A stretch of 5,940 nucleotides of DNA from Pseudomonadota bacterium (lineage in GTDB: Bacteria; Pseudomonadota; Alphaproteobacteria; Parvibaculales; Parvibaculaceae), in contig JAJXZC010000125.1 of the NCBI GenBank assembly GCA_021780275.1, positions 1 through 5,940 of the forward strand. The letters are read 5' to 3'. The position numbers were made by a program, and so were the translations under genes. The number at the start of each line of letters is the position of its first letter. The stretch's first letter is position 1. Of this stretch, positions 1 through 5,940 are shown piece after piece. Under the pieces are notes generated by a model, which saw nothing but the letters and a program-made list of their open reading frames with translations, made no database searches and was not told where the DNA came from.

Positions 1-174
1 GCGGATTGCATCGCGCGCCGAAATGCGGCCTGCCTCAAAGCGCGATGCCAGCGCCAGCATGTCCTCGCCGCCAAACGCGTCCTCGAGTTCGGCGAGTGCG
101 CCGAGCGTCAGCACCAGCGTTCGGCGTTCGCCGCCAAGAGCGGCGTCGATCTCGCCTCTATGTCTGTTGGCCAT
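1..174 (-). CDS. GTA/phage tail assembly chaperone (g10-like), 5' part only
   Basis: The first 58 codons are present, starting at ATG 174-172; the gene continues past base 1. The protein begins MANRHRGEIDAALGGERRTL and continues with a segment containing LGALAELEDAF. That pattern (short beta-rich start with a G-E-R-R-T-L element, then an L-x-x-LE-x-x-F helix) is what I associate with the GTA gp10 / phage tail assembly chaperone family (Phage_TAC_11 type). In this family the protein lies directly after the tail-tube gene and before the tape-measure gene, and is thought to help tail assembly on the tape measure. It follows the tail-tube gene by 10 bp, and an AGGAAG ribosome site overlaps the upstream TAG stop with about 7 bases to the ATG, which supports this start. 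The C-terminus is not visible, so completeness cannot be judged. Confidence 0.8.
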   Translation of the reverse strand, partial: MANRHRGEIDAALGGERRTLVLTLGALAELEDAFGGEDMLALASRFEAGRISARDAIR

Positions 175-184
175 GTTCGTCTTC

Positions 185-598
185 CTAGATCGCGGTGAAG
201 GTCAGCGCGCCTGCGCTTTCCAGCGACATGTCGAAGGTCACTTCGCCATCATGCTCGCCCGCAAATTCCAGCGCCGTGATCTGGAACGGCCCTTCCACGG
301 TGCCGAAATCGGGTATCGCCACCTGCCATACCTTGATTGCCCCATCGAAGAAGACCTGTCTGATGCTCGCATCCGACGCGGCATCGCGGAAAATGCCTCG
401 GCCCGAGATCGAAGCCGAACGCATGCCCGCTCCTTCGAGCAGCTCGCGCCAGCGTCCGGCGGAGTCCGCATTCGTCACATCGACGCTACGCGCATTGAAG
501 GCGAGCGCGCGTGTGCGCAACCCTGCCACCGTGGTGAATGTCCCCGTCCCGCCCGCATCGAGCTTGACGAGCAGGTCCTTGCCTTTCTGTGCGGCCAT
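185..598 (-). CDS. Major tail-tube protein, TP901-1 / GTA g9 family
   Basis: A 137-aa protein starting MAAQKGKDLLVKLDAGG. This opening, the central WRELLEGAG and SISGRG segments, and the C-terminal SAGALTFTA are hallmarks I recognise from TP901-1-type major tail proteins, in particular GTA g9. Subunits of this family stack as rings to form the tube through which DNA leaves the particle. The frame is open further upstream to base 685, but ATG 598 is preferred: GGAG at 606-609 lies 7 bases before it, the family consensus starts here, and the longer version would run deep into the preceding gene. The stop of the tail-completion gene (603-605) is 4 bp upstream, so the two are probably translationally linked. 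Length is normal for the family and no damage is seen. Confidence 0.9.
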   Translation of the reverse strand: MAAQKGKDLLVKLDAGGTGTFTTVAGLRTRALAFNARSVDVTNADSAGRWRELLEGAGMRSASISGRGIFRDAASDASIRQVFFDGAIKVWQVAIPDFGTVEGPFQITALEFAGEHDGEVTFDMSLESAGALTFTAI

Positions 599-602
599 GA
601 TG

Positions 603-1016
603 TCACTCCGTGATTTCCGTGAGGGCGCGGAAGCGGATCGTTCCGCGCCAGGTGGTGCCGTCCGGCTCGCGCCGCGTTTCCGCATCGAGGAAGCGCAGGC
701 TCACAAGCTGCGCGCCTTCCGGCGTCAGGCTCGCGTCGTGCAGCGCCCCATTGATCGCGCCGAGAATGTCTTTCGCCTCGGCGCGCCCGCCACTGCGTGA
801 ATAGGCATGGAAGGCGAGCCGATGTTCCGCGCCCTCGCTGTCGCCGGTGCTCCAGTCGCTCACCTGCGCCTCACCGAGCGTCATGTAGGGAAAGCCCGCA
901 TCGCCCGGCACATTGTCGTAGATGCGCGCCGCGACCAGAGCCGCCAACGCGGCGTCGCTCGAAAGCCGCGCATAGATCGCCTTCTGCAAGGCGAGGTCGG
1001 CGTCATAAGCGCTCAT
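603..1016 (-). CDS. Tail completion / tail terminator protein (DUF3168, GTA g8-like)
   Basis: A 137-aa protein. The N-terminal helix (LQKAIYARLSSDAALAALVA, residues about 9-28), followed by RIYDNVP, FPYMTLGEA and a C-terminal beta-rich half ending WRGTIRFRALTE, is the classic DUF3168 (tail-completion gp17-like) pattern. Proteins of this family form a ring that ends the tail tube and joins it to the head-closure ring; the RcGTA equivalent is g8. The ATG start (1014-1016) overlaps the TGA stop of the upstream head-closure gene by 4 bp (ATGA), which implies coupled translation. It lies between the head-closure and tail-tube genes, the expected place for a tail terminator. The frame is intact and of usual length. 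Confidence 0.87.
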   Translation of the reverse strand: MSAYDADLALQKAIYARLSSDAALAALVAARIYDNVPGDAGFPYMTLGEAQVSDWSTGDSEGAEHRLAFHAYSRSGGRAEAKDILGAINGALHDASLTPEGAQLVSLRFLDAETRREPDGTTWRGTIRFRALTEITE

Positions 1017-1339
1017 ACCCGCACCTCGCAGTCGATGGCGAGCCAGCGTCTCTGTCCATCGGGATCGTGCCTGCTCGAAATGTCCAGCACCCGTCCGCGC
1101 CAGCGAAGTCGCATCTCCGCCGTCACATCGTCGCGATAGCGCATGACGACGCGGTAAGGCTCCCGCGCTTCCTCGCGCTCACCGGCGACAAGCGTCGCGC
1201 CCTTGAAGGAAATGACTTCCGCCGCAACCGTCGCAAGCATGCTCCAGCCCACCGCCGCGCCTCCCGCTCCGTCCGCCGTTCGCGTCGGCACTTCGATTGT
1301 CACCCGCTCGCACAGCCTGCCCGGATCGCGCCCGCTCAC
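1013..1339 (-). CDS. Phage head closure / head-tail stopper (gp16/SPP1-type, GTA g7-like)
   Basis: A 108-aa protein starting MSGRDPGRLCERVTIEVP, with a middle W-S-M-L-A-T-V-A-A-E-V element and a C-terminal half containing EPYRVVMRYR, MRLRWRGRVLDI and a final DCEVRV. The R-I/V-x-I beta start, the 'W-x-x-x-A-x-V-x-A-E-V' centre and the 'R-V-x-x-R-Y-R ... R-x-x-x-R-G-R-x-x-x-I' ending fit the head-tail joining family (Phage_H_T_join; SPP1 gp16-like). These small beta-barrel proteins close the connector after packaging. The start codon is GTG at 1339-1337, overlapping the TGA of the adaptor gene as GTGA, with a weak AAGG about 9 bases upstream. Overlaps at both ends place it in the single head-tail junction block. 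Confidence 0.86.
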   Translation of the reverse strand: MSGRDPGRLCERVTIEVPTRTADGAGGAAVGWSMLATVAAEVISFKGATLVAGEREEAREPYRVVMRYRDDVTAEMRLRWRGRVLDISSRHDPDGQRRWLAIDCEVRV

Positions 1340-1908
1340 AGCCGAAACCTTCGGTATGGCGCAATCAGCGCCGCCACGGTCATGGGAATGTCTGCGCCTG
1401 CGTCACCGAAGGCGACGGGCAGCCGCGTCTCGAACCAATGCGCGACGAGCATCAACACTGCCTGCTTCAATGCCTGTGGCACAGCCTCCGCGCCGCCATA
1501 GCCTGCGGTGAAATCAATGGCGATCCCCGCCATGCGTCGTTTCGGTTTCGGCCAGGCGCCGCCCTCCGCTCCCCAGATGCGCGGCGGCTCGCCGCCAAGA
1601 TCGAGTTCGTAGAGCGTCGCGTCGAGCGTCTCGTCCGGCGCAGTCCGCGCGACGAGCGAAATCGCCGCCACCGCGCTCACCGGCGCGAGCGGCAGCACAA
1701 TCCCCTCCCCCGGAAACCGGTCGAGCAACAATCGCCAGTGCTGTGTCACGAAGGCGCGCCGCGTTTCCGCCTCCAGCGTCGCCCGTGCCGCCGTGATGAG
1801 CGCCGTCACCAGCGTGTCTTCGCTTGTGTCGTCGAGCCGCATGAAGGCCCGCGCCTCGGCAAGCGTCACCGGCTCCTCGGCCGGCCCCGCCGTCAGGATG
1901 AGTGTCAT
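1336..1908 (-). CDS. Head-tail connector/adaptor (phiE125 gp8 / gp6-like family, GTA g6-like)
   Basis: A 190-aa protein starting MTLILTAGPAEEPVTLAEAR, followed by a LRLDD-like element (MRLDD) and E-D-T-L-V-T-A-L-I-T-A-A-R. The 'EPVTLAEAKAxLRLD ... D-x-L-x-x-L-I-x-A-A-R' opening is diagnostic of phage head-tail connector proteins of the gp6/phiE125 gp8 group, which dock under the portal. The C-terminal helical part includes VPQALKQAVLMLVAHWFETR, also typical. The frame stays open to a TTG at 1950, but I chose ATG 1908 because the family signature starts there and the longer version would begin inside a predicted stem-loop. The ribosome site before 1908 is weak (GAAAGA), so expression may be lower than for the capsid protein. 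An 80-bp gap separates it from the gene upstream. Confidence 0.87.
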   Translation of the reverse strand: MTLILTAGPAEEPVTLAEARAFMRLDDTSEDTLVTALITAARATLEAETRRAFVTQHWRLLLDRFPGEGIVLPLAPVSAVAAISLVARTAPDETLDATLYELDLGGEPPRIWGAEGGAWPKPKRRMAGIAIDFTAGYGGAEAVPQALKQAVLMLVAHWFETRLPVAFGDAGADIPMTVAALIAPYRRFRL

Positions 1909-1934
1909 GTAATGTCTTTCGGAAAGGAGTGTGT

Positions 1935-1972
1935 CGTCCCGGCCCTTCAAGGGAGGGAAAAGAGCCGGGACG
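1935..1972 (-). other. Perfect 9-bp inverted repeat (mRNA stem-loop) before the adaptor gene
   Basis: Arms CGTCCCGGC at 1935-1943 and GCCGGGACG at 1964-1972 are exact reverse complements around a 20-base loop. The stem lies in the longest gap of the minus-strand operon, between the unassigned post-capsid gene and the adaptor start. No T-run follows on either strand, so it is not a standard intrinsic terminator. It may act as an RNA-processing, stability or attenuation element that lets head genes be expressed above junction genes. That role is inference. Confidence 0.5.
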
Positions 1973-1983
1973 CGCCCCGCGAT

Positions 1984-2001
1984 GCCGGTTAAACGACCGG
2001 C
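1984..2001 (-). other. 6-bp inverted repeat spanning a stop codon
   Basis: GCCGGT at 1984-1989 pairs with ACCGGC at 1996-2001 around a 6-base loop. The TAA stop of the preceding gene (1989-1991) lies within it. Together with the larger hairpin 12 bases further on in transcription, it makes a tandem stem-loop region. A short, GC-rich repeat of this kind can arise by chance in 65% GC DNA, so confidence is low. Confidence 0.3.
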
Positions 2002-2420
2002 TTCACATTTGCCTTGGTGAGAAGCGCCAGTGCGGCCACCGGCGTGCCGTTCGTATGCGTGCCGGTGAGCGCCAGACTCACGCGGCTATAGCGGGCATTG
2101 CCCACATAGCCGATGCGATAGGCCATCTGCGCCTTCGCCGCGGCGTCGACGGTGGCAAAGACGCCAGCCGCCGAAACCGCCACGCCCGATGTGAGCTTCG
2201 CATCGGTCACGGCCACCCAGCTCGCTCCGTCTTCCGAGGCTTCGAGCTTCACATCCGTCTTGAGGGTCGAGGACAAGGTGTCGCCACTCGCGCCGAAAAG
2301 CACGATGTGCTCCACGGCCTCGAAACCCTGCCGGTCGATCGGCGCACCCGCGCGCGCCGCCGTCGTCACCGCCGGATCGAGCGTCTGCACGGTCTTGATG
2401 TTGTGATGAATGTCGCGCAT
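1989..2420 (-). CDS. Unassigned structural-operon protein after the capsid gene
   Basis: A 143-aa protein starting MRDIHHNIKTVQTLDPAV at ATG 2420, with a strong GAGGAG ribosome site 6 bases upstream and 10 bp after the capsid stop. I do not recognise a named function. The sequence is rich in predicted beta strands: DVKLEASEDGASWVAV (about residues 55-70), YRIGYVGNARYSRVSLAL (about 101-118) and a GTHTNGTPVAALAL ending. I recall similar small proteins directly downstream of capsid genes in alphaproteobacterial prophages, but standard RcGTA goes straight from g5 to g6 and, as far as I know, lacks this gene. The position after the capsid and the good ribosome site suggest an abundant head-associated protein, such as a decoration or stabilising protein; this is inference. 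There is no signal peptide, membrane segment or enzymatic motif. Confidence 0.8.
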   Translation of the reverse strand: MRDIHHNIKTVQTLDPAVTTAARAGAPIDRQGFEAVEHIVLFGASGDTLSSTLKTDVKLEASEDGASWVAVTDAKLTSGVAVSAAGVFATVDAAAKAQMAYRIGYVGNARYSRVSLALTGTHTNGTPVAALALLTKANVKPVV

Positions 2421-2430
2421 CGCGTTCTCC

Positions 2431-3732
2431 TCAAGCCGTTCCGAACTTCAGAAGCTTCAGCGCCTCGAAGTTCTGCACACCGCCGCCCACGCGCTTCGTC
2501 GTGTAGAACAGCACATAGGGCTTGGCGCTATAGGGATCGCGCAGCACGCGCACGCCGAGCCTGTCGACGATGAGATAGCCGCGCTTGAAATCGCCGAAGG
2601 CGATCGCCGTCGCATCCGTGGCGATGGAGGGCATGTCTTCAGCCTCCGTCACCGGATAGTTGAGCAGCGTCGGCGGCGCGCCCGCTGCGATACCCGGCTG
2701 CCAGAGATAGTTGCCTTCCGCGTCTTTCAGCTTGCGAATGGCGCTCTGCGTCGCGCGGTTCATCACGAAGCGCGCATTGGCCCGATAGCCCGCCTTCACC
2801 GAATAGATGAGGTCGATGAGAACGTCCGCCGGATTGGACGAGGGGAAGGCGCCCGCCGCGCCGGTGGCGAGATAGCCGAGCTTGCCCCAGGACCAGTTGG
2901 CATTGGTCACCCTGGCATAGGAGAGGAAGCCGCGCGGCCTGCGAATGCCATCGCCATTGACGAAGGCCGTGCCCTCCTGCTCCGCGAAGGCCGTCTGCAC
3001 TTCTTCCGCCAGCCACTGGTCGATGTTGATCGCCGCATCGTCGAGCAGTGTCGAGGTCGCCGCCGGCATGGCGTAAAGCTCCATCGCCGGGAACTCGATT
3101 TCGGAAAGCCCCGAAGCGGAAGTCTCCGCCCGCGCTTCCGTCTCGCCCACCCAGCCGCTCGCCGGGCCGGAAACCGTGAAGGGCTTCTTGTAGCTCGCCG
3201 CGCCGATCTGGCGCACACCAGCAATGGCGCGGATCGGCGAGGCGTCCGAGACGATGCGGTCGATCAGGCGCTCCGTTTCCGCCGGCACCAGATAGCCGCC
3301 ATCGGGATCGGACTGCGCCGAAAGCGCTTTGGCTTCGAGCGTGCGCAGATCATGCGCTTCGCCCTTGCGCACATAGAGGTCGAAGGCGCGCTTATGCTCG
3401 CGCCGCGCCGGATCGAGCCGCGCACGAGGCTCGCCGCCGATTTCCGGCCGCGCCAGCGTCAGCGCCAGCTCATCCACCGTTTTCTTCTGCCGGTCCAGCG
3501 CGCGGTTGATGCGGTCGACCTTTTCTTCCGTCACCACGTCGGCGGAAAGTTTCTTCTCGATCTCGTCCAGGCGCTCGTCATTGGCCTGCTTGAAGTCCTC
3601 GAAGGCCGAGAGAAACTCGTCCATCGCATCGCGAACCTCATGCGCGCTGACGCTCTTGACCTCCGGCGCGCGCGGCTCACCCTTCAGCGACGCCCCGATG
3701 CGCGGGACGCCCATGTTGAATGCATTCATCAT
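2431..3732 (-). CDS. Major capsid protein, HK97 fold, with N-terminal scaffold domain (GTA g5-like)
   Basis: A 433-aa protein. Residues about 33-95 form a charged, coiled-coil-like region (FEDFKQANDERLDEIEKK, then SADVVTEEKVDRINRALD), the delta/scaffolding domain that HK97-type capsid proteins lose to the prohead protease during maturation. The HK97-fold part begins near residue 137 with ALSAQSDPDGGYLVPAETER, the usual 'G-G-Y-L-V-P' opening, and includes SGWVGETEARAET, LLDDAAINIDQWLAEE and the C-terminal KPYVLFYTTKRVGGGVQNFE. The 'ANDERL...EKKxSADVVTEEK' run closely resembles GTA capsid proteins. Either ATG 3732 or ATG 3729 may be used; AAGGAAG lies just upstream. It follows the protease gene by 14 bp, as expected for the protease/capsid pair. 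The exact cleavage point cannot be read from the sequence. Length is normal and the frame is intact. Confidence 0.95.
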   Translation of the reverse strand: MMNAFNMGVPRIGASLKGEPRAPEVKSVSAHEVRDAMDEFLSAFEDFKQANDERLDEIEKKLSADVVTEEKVDRINRALDRQKKTVDELALTLARPEIGGEPRARLDPARREHKRAFDLYVRKGEAHDLRTLEAKALSAQSDPDGGYLVPAETERLIDRIVSDASPIRAIAGVRQIGAASYKKPFTVSGPASGWVGETEARAETSASGLSEIEFPAMELYAMPAATSTLLDDAAINIDQWLAEEVQTAFAEQEGTAFVNGDGIRRPRGFLSYARVTNANWSWGKLGYLATGAAGAFPSSNPADVLIDLIYSVKAGYRANARFVMNRATQSAIRKLKDAEGNYLWQPGIAAGAPPTLLNYPVTEAEDMPSIATDATAIAFGDFKRGYLIVDRLGVRVLRDPYSAKPYVLFYTTKRVGGGVQNFEALKLLKFGTA

Positions 3733-3746
3733 GCTTCCTTCCGATG

Positions 3747-4403
3747 TCAGTTGAAAATGCGCGCCGCCTCGCGGAATGCCCGCGCCAGCCCCGCGCCATC
3801 GCCTCCCCTCGCGTCCCGCGAAGCTGGAAGCGCCTTGTATCCGCCCGCCACGATGCGGCGAGCCTCCGCCCTGCTGAACCCCGCATCCCGCGAGAGCCAG
3901 CGTTCGAATTGCCGTTCCGTCGGCCGTTCCGATTTGACGGCGCTGATCCGCGCCTCCGGCTGCATCGGAAAGGTCACGACCGAGATTTCCCAGAGATCGA
4001 CTTCGATCAATTTGCGAAGTCCCGTCTTCCCGTCCTTCGTCGCCTTGACGACGTGGTAGCCGATGGAAAGCCCGTCCACCGCACCCGCCCGCATCAGGCT
4101 CAAGACCTCGCGCGAGCGCCCGACATCGGGCAGCAGCTTCCCCTCGACGCGAAGCCCGCGAATATCCTCACTGAGCTTCATCCACACGCCGATCACTTCA
4201 TTCGGGTCGTGCTGATAAAGCATCTTGATGCCGCGCGGACCGCGCTTTGCGAGCGACGAGCGGAACGCGCCGGGCATCACCACATCGCGCCCCAGATCCT
4301 CCTGCCCGAACAACGACGCATAGCCCTCGAAACTCCCGTCCTCCTTCAGCCCCTTCACGTCGAACCGCGTCGCCTTCTGCTCCGACCGCCTGCCCTGTTC
4401 CAC
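3747..4403 (-). CDS. HK97-family prohead protease (peptidase S78/U35, GTA g4-like)
   Basis: A 218-aa serine protease that trims the capsid scaffold domain inside the prohead. Visible motifs are FEGYASLFGQED near the start, MLYQHDPNEVIG with the expected catalytic His, DGLSIGYHV with the nucleophile Ser, and LWEISVVTFPMQPEA, the usual strand after the active site with a conserved Glu. The C-terminal part (ERWLSRDAGFSRAEARRIV) is the normal tail of GTA-type proteases. I place the start at GTG 4403-4401 because GGAGG lies 4 bases upstream; a TTG at 4418 would add five residues but has only a U-tract before it. A minus-strand terminator-like hairpin ends 16 bp upstream, so the gene and everything after it may depend on read-through or on a promoter I could not identify. 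In RcGTA the protease follows g3.5 directly; here a plus-strand gene separates them. Confidence 0.92.
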   Translation of the reverse strand: MEQGRRSEQKATRFDVKGLKEDGSFEGYASLFGQEDLGRDVVMPGAFRSSLAKRGPRGIKMLYQHDPNEVIGVWMKLSEDIRGLRVEGKLLPDVGRSREVLSLMRAGAVDGLSIGYHVVKATKDGKTGLRKLIEVDLWEISVVTFPMQPEARISAVKSERPTERQFERWLSRDAGFSRAEARRIVAGGYKALPASRDARGGDGAGLARAFREAARIFN

Positions 4404-4407
4404 TTGA

Positions 4408-4412
4408 CCTCC
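4408..4412 (-). promoter_or_regulatory. Ribosome binding site deciding the protease start
   Basis: GGAGG on the minus strand lies 4 bases before GTG 4403-4401. It falls inside the reading frame of the longer TTG-started version, which makes the shorter GTG start the better choice. The spacing is slightly short but workable. Confidence 0.6.
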
Positions 4413-4419
4413 AGCCAAT

Positions 4420-4443
4420 AAAAAAGGCGCCCCAGGGGGCGCC
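4420..4443 (-). terminator. Intrinsic terminator-like hairpin facing the protease gene
   Basis: GGCGCCCC (4426-4433) and GGGGCGCC (4436-4443) are exact reverse complements, giving a 7-8 bp pure G/C stem with a 2-4 base loop. Read on the minus strand, the stem is followed at once by six U residues (4425-4420), the textbook layout of a Rho-independent terminator. On the plus strand a weaker T-run (4450-4454) follows six bases after the stem, so some bidirectional action is possible. It would stop transcripts arriving from the portal/g3.5 side, after they have crossed the plus-strand gene in antisense, just before the protease. It marks the left edge of the AT-rich insert. Confidence 0.75.
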
Positions 4444-4512
4444 AGACTCTTTTTGTGCTATTCTTCTGCTAACCAACGAACAAAAATCGCTTATCCAGAT
4501 AGGGATAGAGCA

Positions 4513-5559
4513 ATGACTGATGAAAAAATTGAAGCGGCGAAGGCCGTACACATATCAGGTCTAAAACAGAGGATCGAAATACTCCTAGCCTCTAATGCCG
4601 ACGACTTCTTCGCCAGACCCGCTTGGGGGGAAATAAACTTCTCCGAAATTGTTGCGGTTTGGAATGAGCGTCTCCGACGTATTCTTGAAGCCTTACTCAA
4701 AAGCGAACTAAAGTTTTTAGAGGTTGATGATTTTTCGGCCATCAACAAATTTCTCGCACCAATAGAACAGCTCAAGATCGAGATATCTGATTTCAGACCT
4801 TCAGCGGTAGCCACCCCTCTGCAACGAAGAAATGAGCTTCAATCTCAGATGAGAGGTAAAATTGAAGATTTTGTCGTTTATATTCATCGTTTTTCGTTAT
4901 TTCTGACGCTAGAACAGCTCAGTTCAGATGAACGTCATCTGATAGAGAAAAAATTCGCGGAGGAAGCCGATTTACTTATTTCTTCCCTAGAGAAATCTGA
5001 GGCAGACGCGCAAAAAAAGGCAAATGAGGTACAAACCATTCTGGAAGGCGCTCGCGCTGCGACGGCAAAGATCGGTGTGGAGAAGCATTCTCAGATATTT
5101 TTTTCCGAGTCGAACGTTCTCCACACAACGTCAAATCGTTGGATGATAGCGACGATATTTGTGACGGTCTTCTCCATTAGCGTCGCAATCTATTTCTATC
5201 TGAATCCCGTTGCCGTCCACGACGATGTGGCGCTGTCGATTCAAATCGTGGTGGCAAAAATCATCATAATGAGCATCTTGTTAGGTGCGATCGTTTGGTG
5301 CGGCAAAAACTATAGAGCCTTAGCCCACGAGGCGTCAGTCAACAAGCATAGGGCGAACGCTCTGTCGACTTTTCGAACATTCGTCGACGCGACAGATGAG
5401 ATTGATATACGCAACGCAGTTCTCTTGGAGGCAACAAGAGCGATTTTTTCTCAAGCACCGAGCGGATATCTGGATAAAGGCGACGCATCTGGAGCTGACA
5501 CACGTGTATTGGAGGTGGTTCGATCGCTCTCTGCATCGCTGCCAAAAGGTCACCAATGA
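4513..5559 (+). CDS. Foreign-looking two-membrane-segment protein inserted against the operon
   Basis: A 348-aa protein of unknown function and the only plus-strand gene in the window. ATG 4513 is preferred because AGGGA lies about 7 bases upstream; an in-frame TTG at 4453 would add 20 residues. Residues 1-205 look cytoplasmic and helical, with a charged, coiled-coil-prone part near 133-190 (EEADLLISSLEKSEADAQKK). Two hydrophobic segments follow, about 210-230 (WMIATIFVTVFSISVAIYFYL) and 244-264 (IQIVVAKIIIMSILLGAIVWC). A soluble tail contains NYRALAHEASVNKHRANALS, then TFRTFVDATDE and AVLLEATRAIF, ending near SGYL. I recall similar tails in hypothetical membrane proteins of phage and accessory regions, but this is unverified. 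There is no signal peptide, nuclease, ATPase or other catalytic motif. DNA is strongly AT-rich compared with its neighbours, with AAA, TTT and ATA codons common, pointing to transfer. Its TGA touches the g3.5 stop. I found no convincing promoter. A moron, exclusion or defence protein is possible. Confidence 0.88.
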   Translation: MTDEKIEAAKAVHISGLKQRIEILLASNADDFFARPAWGEINFSEIVAVWNERLRRILEALLKSELKFLEVDDFSAINKFLAPIEQLKIEISDFRPSAVATPLQRRNELQSQMRGKIEDFVVYIHRFSLFLTLEQLSSDERHLIEKKFAEEADLLISSLEKSEADAQKKANEVQTILEGARAATAKIGVEKHSQIFFSESNVLHTTSNRWMIATIFVTVFSISVAIYFYLNPVAVHDDVALSIQIVVAKIIIMSILLGAIVWCGKNYRALAHEASVNKHRANALSTFRTFVDATDEIDIRNAVLLEATRAIFSQAPSGYLDKGDASGADTRVLEVVRSLSASLPKGHQ

Positions 5560-5820
5560 CTACCTCCGCGCCACCGCCCGATCGATCTTCTCCTCAATCC
5601 GCGCGAGGCTCGCCCGCATCGCCTGCGACTGTTCCTCCAGCCGCGCCGTGCGTTCGACCACTTCGTCCGTCCGTCCCGAGCGCAACTCCAGCGCCGTCAG
5701 CCGCTCCGCCGCCGCGCCCGACCAGGTGAGCGCCGCACCGGTTTGCAACATGATGGTCACGACCAGCGCCACCGGGATATGCCGATCGAGCTTCCAGCCC
5801 GCATTATCGCCAAGTTTCAT
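5560..5820 (-). CDS. Small membrane-anchored coiled-coil protein between portal and protease (GTA g3.5-like)
   Basis: An 86-aa protein starting MKLGDNAGWKLDRHIPVALV at ATG 5820, with GAGGA about 5 bases upstream. Residues about 14-33 form one hydrophobic membrane segment (IPVALVVTIMLQTGAALTW). Residues about 38-82 form a heptad-like coiled coil (LEEQSQAMRASLARIEEKID). Small proteins with this layout lie between portal and protease in alphaproteobacterial GTA and related phage clusters (g3.5 position); their role is not established as far as I know. ATG 5820 overlaps the portal stop as ATGA, so a longer version of this frame open to 5898 is unlikely. Its TAG stop (5562-5560) directly abuts the stop of the plus-strand gene, leaving no room for a terminator between the convergent genes. 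The coiled coil looks complete, so the C-terminus is probably not badly truncated. Confidence 0.78.
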   Translation of the reverse strand: MKLGDNAGWKLDRHIPVALVVTIMLQTGAALTWSGAAAERLTALELRSGRTDEVVERTARLEEQSQAMRASLARIEEKIDRAVARR

Positions 5821-5940
5821 CTTGTCCTCGGTCCATATCCCACCGCCGCGCGCTTCTCGTCCTCGATCACGAAGTCCTCCTTCCCCACCCGCGCCCACAG
5901 CGCCCCGCGCTCTGTCGAAAGCACCTCGACCTGATCCGTG
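5817..5940 (-). CDS. Phage portal protein, C-terminal end only (GTA g3-like)
   Basis: The last 40 codons plus a TGA stop (5819-5817) can be read in from the right edge. The peptide contains VEVLSTERGALWARVGKEDF and then EDEKRAAVGYGPR before the stop. The combination 'E-R-x-A-L-W-x-R-V-x-x-x-D-F ... E-K-R-A-A-V-G-Y' is the characteristic C-terminus of HK97-type portal proteins. Twelve copies of the portal form the DNA channel at one capsid vertex. The stop overlaps the start of the g3.5-like gene by 4 bp (ATGA), so the two are translationally coupled. The identification rests on a short tail but fits the gene order exactly. The rest of the gene lies beyond base 5940. Confidence 0.85.
   Translation of the reverse strand, partial: TDQVEVLSTERGALWARVGKEDFVIEDEKRAAVGYGPRTR

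Follow-up and report, generated by a model that had tools for sequence, protein, structure and literature searches.

The window analysed here is the whole of a 5,940-base contig, and the far end of the gene cluster that it samples lies beyond the readable sequence. Its minus strand carries head genes in the order g3.5-g4-g5-g6-g7-g8-g9, as in the RcGTA-type gene transfer agent (GTA) cluster, with g3.5 assigned by position, and Pfam matches to these minus-strand neighbours comprise Peptidase_S78, Phage_capsid, Phage_connect_1, Phage_HCP, gp17 tail completion and Phage_tail_2. The prohead protease gene g4 (3747-4418; Peptidase_S78, E 3e-36) has its probable start at GTG 4403, with GGAGG ahead of the start codon. 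The major capsid gene g5 occupies 2431-3732 (Phage_capsid, E 7e-93; major_cap_HK97), and the stretch 185-2420 holds an unassigned 143-aa ORF, the g6 connector, g7, g8 and the g9 tail tube, recognised through Pfam, TIGR02215 and TIGR02126. The 143-aa ORF (1989-2420), the one extra gene separating g5 and g6, gave no convincing Pfam match, and its DNA aligns in the related loci L010 and L011. The g3.5-like ORF (5560-5898) is likewise named from its position, having no family match in the Pfam and profile scans; it probably starts at ATG 5820, which gives a gene of 86 aa at 5560-5820, and 12 of the 52 other loci in the g3.5 survey described below contain a match to it.

The host cluster is, on profile evidence, of the GTA type, the GTA megatron model matching 13 of 16 related records (12 over its cut-off, including those of L010, L011 and L022). 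Phage_integrase (PF00589) matches none of the 16, some of which may be fragments, and the window is itself short. L100, the record of L011, also scores over the cut-off for the Rcc01695 family and reaches 198.6 bits for RcGTA_tape, under the cut-off of 220. Just ahead of the protease start, a GC-rich hairpin followed by TTTTTT on the minus strand (4426-4443) resembles a terminator and recurs in L010, L011 and L018; three terminator-like sites were found against a mean of 2.0 in shuffled sequence, which is not clearly above expectation. A terminator inside a GTA operon before g4 would call for anti-termination or a new promoter, and its presence may be explained by passage of the GafZ type, in which RNA polymerase reads through terminators within the Caulobacter GTA cluster, according to the available text of PMC11150451. 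Elsewhere in these relatives, L010 has a tandem double g3.5 at 3183-3837 (97.7% and 95.3% matches to the corresponding protein of the window) with repeat-like sequence in between, and two related GTA clusters carry, by eye, AT-richer ORFs between g9 and the tail genes (L100 9568-11513; L101 9924-10838), with lipoprotein- or signal-like starts, again by eye, and no Pfam match.

Between g3.5 and the protease, at 4513-5559 on the plus strand, an ORF from ATG to TGA encodes a 348-aa protein (P0001) with homologues and two predicted transmembrane (TM) helices, a member of an unnamed family; we refer to it as the cargo gene. The original prediction had described a lone plus-strand gene of 348 codons that breaks the minus-strand head operon from g3.5 to the prohead protease and differs greatly in composition, and both parts of the description are confirmed. 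The cargo gene has a GC content of 46.0% (54/37/47% at the three codon positions), against 64-68% in the eight minus-strand genes, where GC3 is 74-83%, and none of 39 windows of equal length in the joined flanks falls below 62.5%. Its stop codon (5557-5559) touches that of the convergent g3.5 (5560-5562), with 0 bases between the two. No sigma-70-like promoter site was found upstream of the gene, and Rfam returned no match at gathering scores in four sources.

The usual description of GTA clusters is of compact loci under vertical inheritance. A search of viral contigs with the protease gave 74 loci, the closest of which, L010, is 95.4% identical in nucleotides over window positions 1-4443 and resumes its alignment at 5562; L011 is 88.9% identical over 1-4443. 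The intervening 1,118 bases (4444-5561) do not align at the nucleotide level with L010 or L011, and their place is taken there by a spacer of 169 bp and 170 bp, respectively. The spacer contains inverted repeats, in L010 with 33-nt arms that are 85% complementary and in L011 with 23-nt arms at 83%, plus shorter ones. A search for the cargo protein in the retrieved DNA of 154 related loci (L010-L085 and L100-L177; 145 distinct records by name), not all of which span the junction, gave no match, and four known carriers included as positive controls were detected. The cargo gene is an insertion into a GTA head cluster. The original prediction of a horizontally acquired accessory gene at an unusual site of a GTA or phage head operon had named the presence of the gene in all related clusters as the observation that would tell against it; its absence from the 154 loci, together with the alignment of L010 on both sides, supports the prediction. 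In the manner of a moron, the cargo is a single accessory gene among virion genes, with deviant GC, and is absent in close relatives. Neither a target-site duplication nor a mobile-element gene was seen by eye at the joins. It is true that the window is an entire 5.9-kb contig and that the closest homologue of the cargo protein (76% identity) has been seen only on contigs no longer than 1.3 kb, but an assembly chimera with two joins in a metagenome contig is scarcely credible, since on both sides the one cluster carries on in the correct order and orientation, the joins fall at gene ends and two independent errors would be needed.

Comparison of the g3.5-g4 junction across relatives, which had been proposed as a check, found the gene absent in most and replaced by other cargo in some. 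The g3.5 survey covered the 53 of 78 input sequences in which a portal and a protease were both hit, and g3.5 was recognisable in 13 of these 53 loci, the window included. The distance from the g3.5 match to the protease domain was at most 306 bp in nine of the 13 and at least 900 bp in the other four (the window, L018, L019 and L038). In L018 the junction holds an Imm-NTF2-2 (NTF2-type immunity) gene on the opposite strand, in L038 an acyl-CoA dehydrogenase gene and in L019 a 191-aa ORF with no family match; a Methylobacterium locus without a g3.5 match (L089, 4047-5302) carries opposite-strand genes between its portal and its protease, namely a VapBC-like pair and a DUF4440 gene. The distance between portal and protease ranged from 15 bp to 3.3 kb in 128 of the 154 sequences (121 records, seven of the sequences re-sampling a record; the window was dropped, its portal being cut), the three longest gaps belonging to AT-rich contigs that resemble ordinary phages; one search contributing to this junction survey supplied the best 80 of 395 matches. 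Given the variable spacing and the Imm-NTF2-2, VapBC-like and acyl-CoA dehydrogenase cargo, the g3.5-protease junction is evidently permissive, with cargo that is in part of a conflict type.

The portal genes of the related clusters provided a separate observation. C-terminal extensions of 124-294 aa were present on 12 of 72 non-identical portal ends (L134, L146, L150, L167, L151, L128, L169, L135, L173, L171, L148 and L147), a count that leaves out portals with no end motif, a score under 300, a cut by the contig end or an identical tail. A linker of the type KYxPDQxRxPxG...GQWT or a variant, taken as a loose pattern, occurs in 11 of the 12. Among five tailed portals scanned, CdiA_C was matched in two (L134 and L146), just above the Pfam cut-off, and the portal domain alone in three. 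Behind the tailed portals lie small, often AT-richer, immunity-like ORFs and apparent displaced portal ends, as labelled by eye, and five other ORFs of these junctions had no Pfam match. In ten of the 12 records, which were searched with the megatron model, there were seven matches over the cut-off, one partial match and two records without any; no integrase match was obtained in these ten. The tails and the ORFs that follow them resemble a polymorphic toxin-immunity apparatus mounted on portals of the GTA type. Reports of such toxin-tailed GTA portals, or of accessory genes at the g3.5-g4 junction, were not found in searches of open-access papers or in the available text of PMC11409702, PMC6209664, PMC6821227 and PMC10883770, the first of which does describe variable insertions in head-tail gene regions of related phages.

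The Imm-NTF2-2 gene of L018 and the toxin-like tails on 12 of 72 portals invite the idea that the cargo is an immunity protein against a membrane-acting toxin, of the kind encoded at the same junction in relatives. No toxin partner is seen within the window, however, and the cargo protein, at 348 aa and with a tail that is conserved between phyla, does not resemble the small and variable immunity proteins, which makes this explanation very unlikely. It is possible, if rather doubtful, that in alphaproteobacterial GTA-type clusters the portal-protease junction serves more broadly as a site of conflict-gene exchange, in which case GTAs would be particles both armed and guarded, and more than vehicles of gene exchange, with the window gene as one of the guards. 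The cargo exchanged there would, with the same degree of doubt, include membrane effectors, VapBC, immunity genes and, in a subset of clusters, portal-borne toxin tips with immunity-like genes behind them.

The first protein search with the cargo protein gave 35 proteins including the query, that is, 34 other homologues at E≤1e-3; the organisms named among them are Parvibaculum, Parvibaculaceae and a Wallbacteria metagenome-assembled genome (MAG), and the closest chromosomal relatives, from Parvibaculum, are 40-45% identical. A search with a broader alignment, over at least 7,995 candidates, added among the matches listed only P0041, already known from L007. Kyte-Doolittle hydropathy predicts TM helices at residues 212-230 (5146-5202, plus strand) and 245-263 (5245-5301, plus strand), and at least two membrane peaks are found in 36 of 44 family proteins (overlapping in P0025), the other eight having fewer at the cut-off used. 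Basic residues come after the second predicted helix, which suggests that the C-terminal tail is cytoplasmic. This tail (residues 265-322; 5305-5478, plus strand) contains the motif NYRAxxHxxxVNKHRxNALSTF...KNAVLLEATxxIFSxxPSGYL and is the most conserved part of alignment A1, with a mean pairwise identity of 0.56, against 0.20 in the least conserved part, residues 1-180.

The window protein has no confident match in Pfam, NCBIfam or PADLOC, the last giving 0 families at E≤10. With 33 aligned members, PADLOC gave weak matches to LeoBC in six (best 6.1e-6) and to AbiZ, LmuB and ZorA in one each (2.4e-4 to 9.7e-4). These and the weak Pfam matches of family members could be coiled-coil noise, and the matches to LeoBC and RBP_receptor were discounted as coiled-coil or TM noise. 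SLATT was not matched by the window protein and was not among the best 25 of 48 Pfam families for the 33 members, one of which matched PADLOC RTasSLATT at E 0.23. A profile search of solved structures returned 35 matches, the best at E 0.0024; most were to designed helical proteins or to coiled coils, and they were judged to be chance. We know of no tested function for any member of the family.

Relatives of the cargo protein were found on 10 distinct viral contigs; the window protein alone as query had no match in the viral contigs, alignment A2 found only L001, and a search of 50,697 annotated phage records found no relative. In three of the ten contigs the gene lies between the terminase large subunit and the portal (L006, identified with Pfam; L007 and L098, with PHROGs), and in L006 it shares that gap with a DUF4145 gene. 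In L004 the relative lies between the portal and an integrase-like gene, in L001, L002 and L003 a recombinase lies within 3 kb of it, and in L099 it adjoins a repressor, with a transposase further off; the contexts of L005 and L096, read by eye, are less clear. In seven of the nine viral loci measured (L002 and L005 fail this comparison and L096 was left out), as in the window, the gene has a lower GC content than any stretch of its length elsewhere in the locus; in three non-viral loci (L008, L009 and L090) the lowest-GC stretch lies elsewhere. Five neighbours in L001, L096 and L099 had no PADLOC match save a weak one to CasR (7.7e-6, L099). Because they were drawn from a viral collection, the viral contexts are biased towards phages.

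In cellular genomes the family is rare: four of 395 genomes of one phylum match at E≤1e-15, and two of these had already emerged from a scan of a genome collection that gave two Ignavibacteria loci. Restriction or candidate defence genes lie near the relative in three of the four: in L009 it is within a type I restriction-modification set with PDC-S23, in L008 it is beside PDC-M41A/B, and in L179 HsdS lies 1.4 kb away with HsdM beyond, the member in this genome (G174) being a short C-terminal fragment. HsdS matches occur on five contigs in each of the two restriction-associated genomes, so nearness to the relative by chance is unlikely. The broken copy in the fourth genome (L178) has no defence neighbours by eye. 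Nineteen plasmid records gave distant matches only. The Vibrio plasmid copy lies inside a run of 17 same-strand genes, some annotated as Hhe and AbiH; because this copy sits in a gene array, an integron-cassette origin was considered, and no attC-like end was seen by eye beside the stop codon. Piscirickettsia plasmids account for 18 of the matches, and in the one inspected insertion sequences and Fic genes are nearby and no annotated defence genes were found near the relative.

These contexts bear on what the gene does. It could be a neutral or generally useful hitchhiker without any phage role, for example a membrane protein related to envelope stress or transport, that settled in a permissive intergenic spot, as the unrelated cargo at the same junction (the acyl-CoA dehydrogenase of L038) and the Piscirickettsia copy away from annotated defence genes would allow. 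However, relatives are found repeatedly at accessory sites of phages and in the vicinity of restriction genes or candidate defence genes, and we consider such a hitchhiker unlikely, if far from negligible. Alternatively, the gene may serve the GTA in whose cluster it sits, as a lysis or release factor or by shielding producer or recipient cells from GTA entry; it would then have been co-opted in the way of LypABC of Caulobacter, a defence-like system that can be needed for GTA release (available text of PMC13236601). Its strand is opposite to that of the operon, clusters that align over the remainder of the window lack it, and its relatives occur in genomes and phages without any sign of a GTA at the locus, all of which renders a GTA role improbable.

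The reading that we prefer, with slightly better than even confidence, is that the cargo is a horizontally acquired moron-type gene at the g3.5-g4 junction that most likely encodes a phage-conflict membrane effector. The bacterium whose GTA cluster received it is probably Parvibaculum-like, to judge from the organisms named among the homologues, with IMG 640753040 taken as P. lavamentivorans. The long variable N-terminal part, the hairpin with a short outer loop and the conserved inner tail suggest a sensor joined to a membrane effector. The product would sit in the inner membrane by way of a two-helix hairpin, its variable and helical N-terminal part and its conserved C-terminal tail both lying in the cytoplasm. 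The N-terminal part would sense incoming phage or phage products, upon which the hairpin and the conserved tail would oligomerise, and the oligomer would depolarise the membrane or block DNA entry, that is, act by abortive infection or superinfection exclusion. The observations under this reading are the insertion, its deviant composition, the family, the hydropathy peaks and the neighbourhoods of the relatives; from them we infer the host, the membrane orientation, the helical N-terminal part, the sensing, the effector action and the protection of the cell. The earlier suggestion that the gene acts on phage or GTA biology is favoured by the contexts of its relatives.

Prophage morons and the membrane proteins of superinfection exclusion, such as SieA of P22, are typically encoded by AT-rich single genes in their own orientation among virion genes. 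The cargo gene, AT-rich, single, in its own orientation among virion genes and predicted to encode a membrane protein, resembles them, although it has no match to any named exclusion protein in the libraries searched. SLATT and similar defence effectors have two membrane helices, as the cargo protein is predicted to have, but the latter has no SLATT match and is ordered as a long N-terminal part, a hairpin and a conserved tail. In the available text of PMC9122126, P2-like prophages and P4 satellites have defence hotspots where small accessory genes, among them some for TM effectors, replace one another, and the P2-like hotspot adjoins the portal gene. The site described here is similar in these respects and differs in its GTA-type carrier (no integrase in 16 related records) and in the junction used, g3.5-protease. 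According to the available text of PMC5576092 and PMC3482391, the genes for MuF polymorphic toxins come immediately downstream of those for phage portals, which likewise places conflict genes at the portal gene of the head module. Unlike these, the tailed portals bear their extensions on the portal protein itself, in GTA-type clusters, and the cargo gene is not such a toxin. A foreign membrane gene in a GTA head cluster, from a family linked to defence loci and to accessory sites of phages and at a junction that in relatives holds other genes of a conflict type, would offer a direct handle on whether GTA loci join in phage-host conflict, and the cargo family, which has no model in the libraries searched, is a candidate for a phage-challenge test.
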